Below, piece after piece: positions 1,252 through 61,577 of a DNA stretch of 61,577 nucleotides (position 1 is its first letter; each line of letters starts with the position of its first letter). The stretch spans positions 1 through 61,577 of IMG/VR virus record IMGVR_UViG_3300033153_010015; one strand, written 5' to 3'. The notes beneath the pieces were generated by a model. The model did not search any database and had not been told where the DNA came from. It saw nothing but the letters and a program-made list of their open reading frames with translations. Made by a program: the position numbers and the translations under genes. Source of the DNA: a virus.

Positions 1252-1403
1252 TTGGCGAGGATCGGTGCCTTCAGGATGGCGAATCACAAGGAGAGAAGGC
1301 ATTGAATGTTAAACTCTCATGACCATCTTGGTTGTGATAAGGAAGTCCTTTACCTATTGAGGCTGCTGCTCCTGCAGCTACGACTTCCTGTGATCCTCGC
1401 CAA
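1252..1403 (-). ncRNA. Candidate structured RNA with pseudoknot
   Basis: A gene-free segment between the stop of the nuclease gene (1409) and the gene at 1228. Perfect complementary pairs are: P1 1252-1263/1392-1403 (12 bp); P2 1340-1347/1382-1389 (8 bp) capped by 1362-1366/1374-1378 (5 bp); P3 1283-1289/1332-1338 (7 bp); and P4 1266-1272/1295-1301 (7 bp). P4 pairs the loop of P3 with sequence outside it, forming an H-type pseudoknot. Linkers between P1, P2, P3 and P4 are only 1-2 bases. On the minus strand P1 is followed directly by ATCTTTTT. It could be a riboswitch-like leader, an antitermination element or a processed small RNA; orientation is inferred from the flanking genes. Confidence 0.5.
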
Positions 1404-16855: not shown

Positions 16856-16892
16856 TATTGCTCTCAGGTAGTGAATTTGTATGCTGAGACTG
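16856..16892 (+). repeat. 37-base direct repeat, copy 2
   Basis: Copy 2 of the repeat at 16751-16787. It overlaps the left arm of the 20-base inverted repeat and continues into CTGAGACTGCTCTCAG (16884-16899), itself a 6-bp dyad. Confidence 0.7.
16859..16878 (+). repeat. 20-base inverted repeat, left arm
   Basis: These 20 bases are the exact reverse complement of 17041-17060. The arms flank 162 AT-rich bases. Confidence 0.85.
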
Positions 16893-17040
16893 CTCTCAGT
16901 GGAAAAATGGGAATCGCTCCAAAAGAGTTTGGCCGAGAAACACGAAAGTTTATCGGACCCTGTGGAAGAATACATATTTTAATAATTTATATAGAGTCTC
17001 TCTTATATAATCTAATCTAACATGGTTTTAACAAAAGTGG

Positions 17041-17060
17041 AAATTCACTACCTGAGAGCA
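17041..17060 (-). repeat. 20-base inverted repeat, right arm
   Basis: Exact reverse complement of 16859-16878. Immediately to the right, GC composition rises and a series of hairpins begins (17058-17260). Confidence 0.85.
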
Positions 17061-25074: not shown

Positions 25075-25682
25075 TGAAGTCGGTTGACATTCAGGCAAAT
25101 ACGTATAGAGTAGTGACCACACGTACCCGTATCGTAGCCGCCCTTTTAGGGGCGGCCTTTCTATTTGGGTGTAAAGAGGTCTCATTACCAGATATCTCCG
25201 GAGACAGCTTCAAGTTGCCTCCTAAGGTGCGCGCCTTTCCTGCACCGCCAGCAGAAGATCCGAAATACCCGAGGTACGACCCGTACCAGCCCCTGTACCA
25301 GGGAAACAGGTTCTGGAGGGACCGGAAGAGTGCCCCTCCGACAAAGAAAATCGACTGGAGGGAGCAGCACAAGATCGAGCTCAGCAACCTGGGGTTCGAT
25401 ATGCTCAAGTGGGGAGCCGTCGGGGCCGTCTTAGGCATAGCCTTCTGCCTTTCAGTTCAGAACGAATTAGCGGACGCTGCAGGGGCCTTCGTGGCCGCGG
25501 CAGGACTCATATCGATCGGCTTCGGTATGGGCTTCCTGTGGATCACGGAAATCTGGCAGTGGATGGTCTACGCGGCGACAGCAGGTGCAACCATCTGGCT
25601 GGTCATGAGATTCCGAGGCAGGGGACTGAAGTTTCGAAAGCCGAAACCTTCTTGCAAAATACCCCCTGAACCTGTAGAGTAA
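25071..25682 (+). CDS. Lipoprotein-like membrane protein
   Basis: A 203-residue protein. The N-terminus has a hydrophobic stretch ending in a lipobox-like LLGAAFLFGC (Cys near residue 34), then a Pro-rich segment. Two to three transmembrane helices follow (about residues 113-185) and a basic tail. Lipidation plus later membrane spans is an unusual order. It lies between an unknown gene and the tail genes; a link to lysis or DNA entry is only a guess. ATGA overlap with the preceding gene. Confidence 0.7.
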   Translation: MMKSVDIQANTYRVVTTRTRIVAALLGAAFLFGCKEVSLPDISGDSFKLPPKVRAFPAPPAEDPKYPRYDPYQPLYQGNRFWRDRKSAPPTKKIDWREQHKIELSNLGFDMLKWGAVGAVLGIAFCLSVQNELADAAGAFVAAAGLISIGFGMGFLWITEIWQWMVYAATAGATIWLVMRFRGRGLKFRKPKPSCKIPPEPVE

Positions 25683-59587: not shown

Positions 59588-61577
59588 TTATCCTATTCCG
59601 AACTTTTCTCGGAAAAGCTTACGCATCGTAGGATCGAGCGTTTCTACGTTCTCAATCTTCTCTCTGAGAACTTCCGACGGGAAGATCTTAGGGATAGGAT
59701 CGTAGTTGCCGATGATGAGCCGGTTGGGGGCCGTGGTGGTCTGGTGAATGTATAGGGCATCATTCAGGGTGGATGCAAAGATCATGTCGTCCCACGGGGA
59801 GCTGTTGGCGGTATTGGCGATGACGACGTCAGCTTTTTGACCTTTACGGTGCAGACGACCCAATACTTGCTCGGCCATGTTGGCAGATCTGGGCCACTGG
59901 AGGAACCACTGATGCTGGAAGTGTTGCAGGTTCTTTCCTTGGCCGTGCGCACGCATGCTGGCCACGATGATCCGCTTCTTATTGGCATGGTCGATTATCC
60001 TCGAGTTGTGGACTCCGCCGGCAGGGCAGTACATAACAGGCAGCCCTGCCTTCTTCAGGACCTCGTTCATCCACAGGCCCATTTCGATATGAAAGACCCA
60101 GATGATTCCGCCCTCGCCTTTGGCAGCAATCGTCTTGGCCCACTTCAGAGCCTGGTCGACCTTGAACGAGCACAACCTTACCGCGCGCTTGTGACGTCCA
60201 AACATGTCGGTCTTCGGCGGGTTGACCATCAGCATCAGCTCGGGGAAGACGGAGTCGTTCTTGGCGGCCCACTTCTCGTAAAGGTGGTAGCCGACGTCCC
60301 GGTCTCCGTGGTGATACATATTGCCTCCAACCAGTGCTGGAGTGTCGAGACCTGGCTGGTGCTTGTCGGCGAACCATCCACGCAGAGTCCTGTGGTACTC
60401 CTGCGTCTTATCGAGGTGGTTCATGGCCTGCTGGAGGTAGGACTCCGCGGCCGACTCCGGGCACTGTAAGTCCTTGGCTACGGTCTCGACGGGGGGCCAG
60501 ACTACTTCGGTGTAGAATCCGGCGCCGTAGATCTGGTACTGCCACTTCCATTTCATCATCGGATGCTCGAGCTCGTCACCGTTGGGTGTGACCATCATGT
60601 CTTCCACCTGGCTGCCCAGCTCCTGCACCCGGTCGTAGCCTGCATAGGCGGCCATCTCTCCAGCGCTCATACGATTGTTCTTTAAGAGCAGGCTCGAGTC
60701 GACGTTGAGCTGGCCGTCGGAGCATACGACTCCGGGGGTAGTGGAGAGCCGGTAGGCAAACGCTCGGCGGAAGCCCGCCACTCCAGGCGGCATTCGTTCG
60801 CGGAGGTTCTTCTGAGCCCAGCTGATCAGCGGAGTAAGTGCGCCGGGGTTCCACTGGGAGGTATCGACGTCGTCCTTGGTAACGTCGGCATCGAGGAGGG
60901 CCGACCACTCTTGAACCATGGATAGTGGGCGGGGAAGGAAAGAGTCTTTCTTGAGAGAGTGCTTCACCAGGAAGAAATAGTCCAGGATGCTCTTGCGAGT
61001 CATCGTACCGCTCATGGGTACGAACTCCGGCTGGTACTCCTCGATGTATCCCTGCAGGCGTTTGGCACGGGCAGAATCCCGGCCGGAAATGGCGTGGGCC
61101 TCGTCGAAGACGATGATCTCAGGCTTGATCAGGTTGAGGAGCTCGACGGCATCCTTGGTGCTGAGGTAGGAATCAGATAGGATGTAGAGCCCGGGGCGAC
61201 CGCGCTTGGCCACTGCCATACGCTCTTTCTTGGGTCTGCCGGCGAGCAGGTGCATCGGGTAGGATATGGGGACGCGCTTGCGCCAGTAAGGCACGTCGTT
61301 CTGCCAGAGCTGGGCGATCATGGAAGAGGGGACAATGAGCATCATCTTCCGGAGGCCCTTGCGGTAGGCCTTCTCCGGGATCATGAGGCTGATGCCTGTC
61401 TTGCCTCCGCCGACGCCAATCGGGAGGAACGGCCCGGAGAACATCTCGTAGGCCATCACGGCCTCGGCCTGCTTGGGCATGAGCCGGAACCCTTCAGCAT
61501 ACGCCTCTGCCAGTATATTCATCTGGCTGTATGCCTCGACCTCCTCCGGGGCGAGGGGGAGGCAGATAGGCAGCTCC
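59588..61577 (-). CDS. SNF2/DEAH-type helicase (continues at 143..1)
   Basis: Main part of a 672-residue superfamily 2 helicase whose first 28 codons lie at 60-143 at the window start. Motifs (numbering from the ATG at 61522): Q-like KQAEAV (18-23), Walker A GVGGGKTG (36-43), DEAH in IIVFDEAHAI, SGT in VPMSGTMT, and motif VI LGRLHRKGQ near the end, where SNF2-type enzymes have QRxGRxGQ. It probably unwinds or remodels DNA at the replication fork. The C-terminus ends in a hairpin word shared with the next gene. Confidence 0.85.
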   Translation of the reverse strand, partial: ELPICLPLAPEEVEAYSQMNILAEAYAEGFRLMPKQAEAVMAYEMFSGPFLPIGVGGGKTGISLMIPEKAYRKGLRKMMLIVPSSMIAQLWQNDVPYWRKRVPISYPMHLLAGRPKKERMAVAKRGRPGLYILSDSYLSTKDAVELLNLIKPEIIVFDEAHAISGRDSARAKRLQGYIEEYQPEFVPMSGTMTRKSILDYFFLVKHSLKKDSFLPRPLSMVQEWSALLDADVTKDDVDTSQWNPGALTPLISWAQKNLRERMPPGVAGFRRAFAYRLSTTPGVVCSDGQLNVDSSLLLKNNRMSAGEMAAYAGYDRVQELGSQVEDMMVTPNGDELEHPMMKWKWQYQIYGAGFYTEVVWPPVETVAKDLQCPESAAESYLQQAMNHLDKTQEYHRTLRGWFADKHQPGLDTPALVGGNMYHHGDRDVGYHLYEKWAAKNDSVFPELMLMVNPPKTDMFGRHKRAVRLCSFKVDQALKWAKTIAAKGEGGIIWVFHIEMGLWMNEVLKKAGLPVMYCPAGGVHNSRIIDHANKKRIIVASMRAHGQGKNLQHFQHQWFLQWPRSANMAEQVLGRLHRKGQKADVVIANTANSSPWDDMIFASTLNDALYIHQTTTAPNRLIIGNYDPIPKIFPSEVLREKIENVETLDPTMRKLFREKFGIG
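59596..59614 (-). repeat. 19-base hairpin repeat, copy 2
   Basis: Exact second copy of the word at 59303-59321, here just before the helicase stop and encoding FREKFGI. Confidence 0.8.
61464..61577. repeat. Terminal direct repeat, right copy
   Basis: Exact copy of bases 1-114; see the left copy. Confidence 0.95.

Follow-up and report, generated by a model that had tools for sequence, protein, structure and literature searches.

A 152-nt stretch on the minus strand of a phage genome, here called E1 (positions 1252-1403), is a real structured element, the exact fold and job of which are unproven. Its most plausible reading, still a tentative one, is that of an mRNA structure between two cistrons, which would work as an attenuator or an intrinsic-terminator-like barrier in the replication operon and possibly leave a stable small RNA. 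The window, that is, the whole 61.6-kb stretch of DNA analyzed here (61,577 nucleotides), is a complete circular phage genome, in which positions 1-114 and 61464-61577 are identical (114 bp).

E1 folds far better than expected by chance, with z-scores of -5.24 (plus strand) and -5.66 (minus strand), and not one of 200 dinucleotide shuffles matched it. The original prediction had described the density of pairing as typical of selected RNAs and had itself named the shuffle comparison as a possible refutation. E1 survived this comparison, folding 5 to 6 standard deviations better than the shuffles, and after GC correction no other 152-nt window of the genome is as structured, on either strand. 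Among 6,893 windows from its own and from related phage DNA, it ranks second on the plus strand and fourth on the minus strand. The folding surplus does not come from the closing helix P1 alone, since the part inside P1 reaches a z-score of -3.2 and the P2 domain one of -4.0; the P3/P4 part, scored without a pseudoknot, has a z-score of -2.2. That E1 is a chance or mutational by-product without function is very improbable. The site had been picked by eye, and closing helices of at least 11 bp are by themselves common in these phages, with about 1 per 10 kb, but top-ranked folding, a U-tract, and crossing helices are jointly improbable, and phage spacers are short as a rule.

All five perfect helices that had been described (12, 8, 5, 7, and 7 bp) are present where they had been placed. 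Read as minus-strand RNA, the closing helix P1 is a 12-bp perfect inverted repeat of UUGGCGAGGAUC (1392-1403) with GAUCCUCGCCAA (1252-1263), and P2 is an 8-bp perfect inverted repeat of AGGAAGUC (1382-1389) with GACUUCCU (1340-1347). Within P2, two hairpins are predicted in both the MFE and the centroid folds, namely P2a (GCUGC-AGGA-GCAGC, 1365-1378) and the small P2b (GCCU-CAAU-AGGU, 1352-1363), the latter being absent from the original list. P3 is formed by AUCACAA (1332-1338) and UUGUGAU (1283-1289), and P4 by UGCCUUC (1295-1301), which lies in the P3 loop, and GAAGGCA (1266-1272); both are 7-bp perfect inverted repeats, and P4 crosses P3. The spacing of 1-2 bases is as claimed, with 2 nt between P1 and P2, 1 nt between P2 and P3, and 2 nt between P4 and P1. 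The statement that there are almost no linkers went too far, as the five helices account for only 78 of the 152 nt, with a 30-nt and a 10-nt stretch of the P3/P4 part falling outside them. The interval is gene-free, as had been noted, and the actual gene-free extent is 180 nt (1229-1408).

The proposed H-type pseudoknot of P3 and P4 is a possibility only: the crossing helices exist, but the pseudoknot is not the predicted minimum, and either helix alone is predicted to beat both. Nearest-neighbor energies are -62.3 kcal/mol for the nested fold with P3, -59.5 kcal/mol for the nested fold with P4, and about -54 to -48 kcal/mol for both together, the last being a crude estimate based on standard pseudoknot penalties. 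The P4 fold thus lies 2.8 kcal/mol above the P3 fold; the two are mutually exclusive as nested folds, and P1 is kept in both. In a post hoc test, two crossing perfect 7-bp helices appeared in 0.26% of the shuffles of the 76-nt P3/P4 part. The pseudoknot is plausible but unproven, and P3 and P4 may be alternatives, because the energy favors either of them alone over both.

E1 belongs to a minus-strand transcription unit that extends from a divergent AT-rich region (16.6-17.3 kb) to position 1 and then across the circular join. A near-consensus sigma70-type promoter (TTGACA-17-TATAGT, minus 16652-16624) stands at the head of this unit. The 735-nt AT-rich divergent region, which separates two transcription units, contains a second strongly folded gene-free interval (16859-17060), in which the arms of a perfect 20-bp inverted repeat, TGCTCTCAGGTAGTGAATTT, lie 162 nt apart (z-scores of -7.6 on the minus and -6.8 on the plus strand). 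This interval may be an origin or control region, and its blastn comparison with the relatives of the phage gave no match. Past the join, the unit continues with an SNF2-type helicase (61522-59588), the gene start of which falls inside the 114-bp terminal repeat, with what we take to be an SSB-like protein, which has no profile match, and with a family A DNA polymerase.

Within this tightly packed operon, E1 fills the largest gap, and between 1 and 9.7 kb the only other gap of at least 70 nt is an unstructured one of 99 nt. Upstream of E1 lies the gene of a 725-aa nuclease-like protein (3586-1409, minus), which is assigned to the Cas4/RecB type by synteny and by weak PHROG exonuclease matches (E 0.0026-0.0027), and which aligns with the nuclease gene of the related phages L003 and L005 at 31-33% identity. 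Its UAA stop codon (1411-1409) is located 5 nt ahead of P1. Downstream lies p178, a 178-aa orphan (1228-692, minus) and the first gene of an inserted cassette, followed by orphans of 112 aa (717-379, minus) and 76 aa (454-224, minus), the latter membrane-like; the next gene, across the circular join, is that of the helicase. p178 has no match in Pfam, PHROGs, or the phage records, and the PDB gave one chance hit only; its predicted structure is unusable (pLDDT 37). Read-through or frameshifting from the nuclease gene into p178 was rejected: the two share a reading frame but are separated by a second stop, and a slippery site was not seen.

Owing to this position, E1 could be a cis-regulatory leader of p178, riboswitch-like or protein-binding, that alters access to the U-tract or to the Shine-Dalgarno sequence, with P3 and P4 as its two states. 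Its folded domain lies 23 nt before the AUG, directly upstream of p178, and the exclusive P3 and P4 folds with their small energy difference would suit a switch. In addition, UUUAACUCU (1239-1247), just upstream of the Shine-Dalgarno sequence, can pair with AGAGUUUAA (1309-1317) in the P3 loop, forming 6 bp plus 2 beyond a mismatch, which is a possible long-range contact. The start region itself (1226-1242, minus), with GGAGGG (1238-1233) and the AUG (1228), is located in a weak local hairpin, UAACUCU/GGAGUUA, of about -6.8 kcal/mol, but start hairpins of similar strength are found at other genes of the same phage. Such a leader is nonetheless unlikely, as P1 is kept in both folds and P3/P4 switching would not obviously alter the tail, E1 matches no known leader, and p178 has no known function.

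The strongest functional clue to E1 is its tail. As had been pointed out, UCUUUUUA (1244-1251), a terminator-like U-tract, comes directly after P1 in the minus-strand reading. The 12-bp helix, which contains 7 G-C pairs, stops 2 nt before UUUUU, and it does so on the coding (minus) strand only. There are only 42 runs of at least five T in the genome, counting both strands, and the one at E1 has by far the longest upstream helix (12 bp; the next best has 8). A perfect helix of at least 12 bp would end just before a randomly chosen position with a probability of about 0.001, which for 42 runs amounts to an expectation of about 0.04 per genome. The phage has ordinary terminator-like hairpins with U-runs at other sites (minus 53156 and minus 42917), and these, together with the near-consensus sigma70-type promoter that heads the unit, make intrinsic termination plausible in the host. 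A standard terminator scan omits E1 because the loop between the P1 arms is 128 nt long. On the plus strand, a predicted gene contains at 25084-25156 a promoter-like site and, about 25 nt farther on, the strong terminator-like hairpin GCCGCCCTTTTAGGGGCGGC.

From the sequence, we infer that E1 is transcribed, that transcription can terminate at it with partial read-through, and that a ribosome can influence the outcome. As RNA polymerase passes, the interior of E1, which comprises the three-way junction at P2 and the domain with P3, P4, or both, would fold and pull the two P1 arms together. P1 would be finished just when the polymerase gets to the U-tract, resembling an intrinsic terminator the "loop" of which is a folded domain. 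E1 would then serve as a partial attenuator or as a former of 3' ends, so that less transcription would pass from the nuclease gene to the inserted cassette and to the replication genes behind it. With a ribosome halted at the nuclease UAA, the outer part of the P1 5' arm would be covered, and attenuation would therefore depend on translation. E. coli offers an established case of ribosomes controlling intrinsic terminators (PMC5021804). The RNA released by termination, about 150 nt long, could survive as a small RNA.

The attenuator reading was chosen because it needs the least beyond what is seen. Besides the omission by the terminator scan and the failure to find a homologue, other points count against it. 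A full terminator at E1 would cut off the helicase, the SSB-like protein, and the polymerase, and no sigma70-type promoter was seen on the minus strand between E1 and the polymerase gene. Since these essential genes lie downstream without a sigma70-type promoter of their own, E1 would have to be either no terminator at all or one that is leaky or regulated; an attenuator of that kind fits better than a complete stop. Moreover, a terminator would hardly seem to need domains as elaborate as P2 and P3/P4. Three ideas had been put forward originally, namely a ligand-sensing leader, an antitermination element, and a stable small RNA cut from the transcript. The terminator-like tail favors a transcription attenuator or a small RNA that ends at this tail, while ligand sensing found no specific support.

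The nearest rival of the attenuator is a stable, trans-acting small RNA, for instance a decoy or an antisense RNA, that is cut out by RNase III/E or ended at the U-tract and protected by P1. The same termination event is compatible with it, and E1 has the closed ends, compact fold, and U-tail that characterize stable small RNAs. Phage small RNAs processed from operons do exist, such as DicF, which is made by termination and RNase III/E processing according to work cited in PMC12197685. However, there is no promoter directly upstream of E1, and neither a homologue nor a second genomic copy of it was found, so that a small RNA of this kind appears rather unlikely.

Relatives of the phage were found through alignment-guided searches with the helicase and the polymerase, and they are many, none being closer than about 40-43% protein identity. 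Single-protein searches with the nuclease, p178, the polymerase, and the primase returned no relatives, and no polymerase relatives were found in GTDB. The junction between nuclease and helicase was compared in L003, L005, L012, and L014, that of L013 not being cleanly readable. The two genes overlap by 4 nt in L012 and L014 and by 1 nt in L005; in L003 they are separated by about 200 nt, mostly under a short and perhaps spurious ORF on the opposite strand. In the phage studied here, E1 and the three orphan genes (cassette 224-1403) put about 1.4 kb between nuclease and helicase, and E1 marks the border of a cassette that is missing from these four relatives.

In the related records, blastn, tblastn, and a single-sequence covariance model, the last run for E1 against 41 of them, brought up neither E1 nor the cassette genes. 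This absence is a weak negative, because a model built on one sequence finds only copies that are fairly similar, many of the records are fragments, and very close ones may be missing from the collection. The view that E1 is no known riboswitch, ribozyme, or packaging RNA agrees with Rfam, which gave no family match at the gathering score, pRNA included, and at E 10 only a chance lncRNA hit (E 5.5). Only chance-like matches came from blastn against phage and plasmid collections, an exact 20-mer had no match in the viral contigs, and there is no second copy in its own genome. Two candidates were discarded on inspection: the sole exact 19-mer match in GTDB genomes, in Streptomyces tendae (L054), where the flanks do not continue E1, and L005:16301 as a second E1-like example, where the opposite strand, judged by eye, encodes a homologue of the 52585-53145 gene and the stretch is therefore coding.

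The edge of a segment absent from relatives would also suit a DNA-level element, such as a cassette scar or end, a recombination site, or an origin-like structure, the RNA fold of which is incidental, and the inverted repeats fold equally on both strands (z-scores of -5.2 and -5.7). This is quite improbable, given that inspection of the far end of the cassette revealed neither a target-site duplication nor a matching repeat, that the U-tract is strand-specific, and that E1 is present in a single copy. A transposon or MITE was rejected on the same count of copies and because no target-site duplication was seen in the flanking bases. It is distinctly unlikely, too, that E1 is the first example seen of a class of phage RNAs not yet described, compact and possibly pseudoknotted, either a P3/P4 switch or a trans-acting RNA such as an anti-defense decoy, which was brought into the replication operon together with the orphan three-gene cassette.

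If the attenuator reading is true, an accessory cassette that sits between two replication genes has a folded terminator-like RNA at its border, and cargo genes might be added in this way without disturbing the operon. Were E1 instead a stable or switching RNA, it would represent a new phage RNA class outside Rfam. E1 is one orphan example, of value mainly as a clearly delimited candidate for mapping of 3' ends and structure probing.

Several known systems share features with E1. Like riboswitches and r-protein leaders, it is a compact multi-helix domain closed by P1 and placed before a possible expression platform and a start codon; unlike them, it has no Rfam riboswitch or leader match even at E 10, and both of its folds keep P1. 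Phi29-type pRNA is a phage RNA of similar length with a terminal helix closing a three-way junction, but E1 lies in the replication operon, 31 kb from the terminase gene, and Rfam gave no pRNA match. GOLLD and ROOL are likewise structured non-coding RNAs carried by phages, but they are several hundred nt long and E1 has no Rfam match. A pseudoknot-capable RNA with a terminator-like tail, followed by the gene of a protein of about 180 aa, also recalls type III toxin-antitoxin systems (ToxI-like); E1 differs in having no tandem repeat units by eye, and such a system was rejected, as p178 matches no ToxN, CptN, or TenpN profile in Pfam or PHROGs. DicF-type small RNAs resemble E1 as structured RNAs in a phage operon with a terminator-like end, and a sequence relation to them is not expected. 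With intrinsic terminators and attenuators, E1 shares a GC-containing stem followed immediately by a U-tract, on the transcribed strand and between two genes, the 3' stem arm being made last, right before the U-tract. It differs from them in that 4 nt separate the last G-C pair from the U5 run and in that the stem closes a folded domain of 128 nt where a short loop of 3-8 nt is usual. E1 can be filed as an unusual variant on a known theme, set apart from the classical terminator by its large folded loop.
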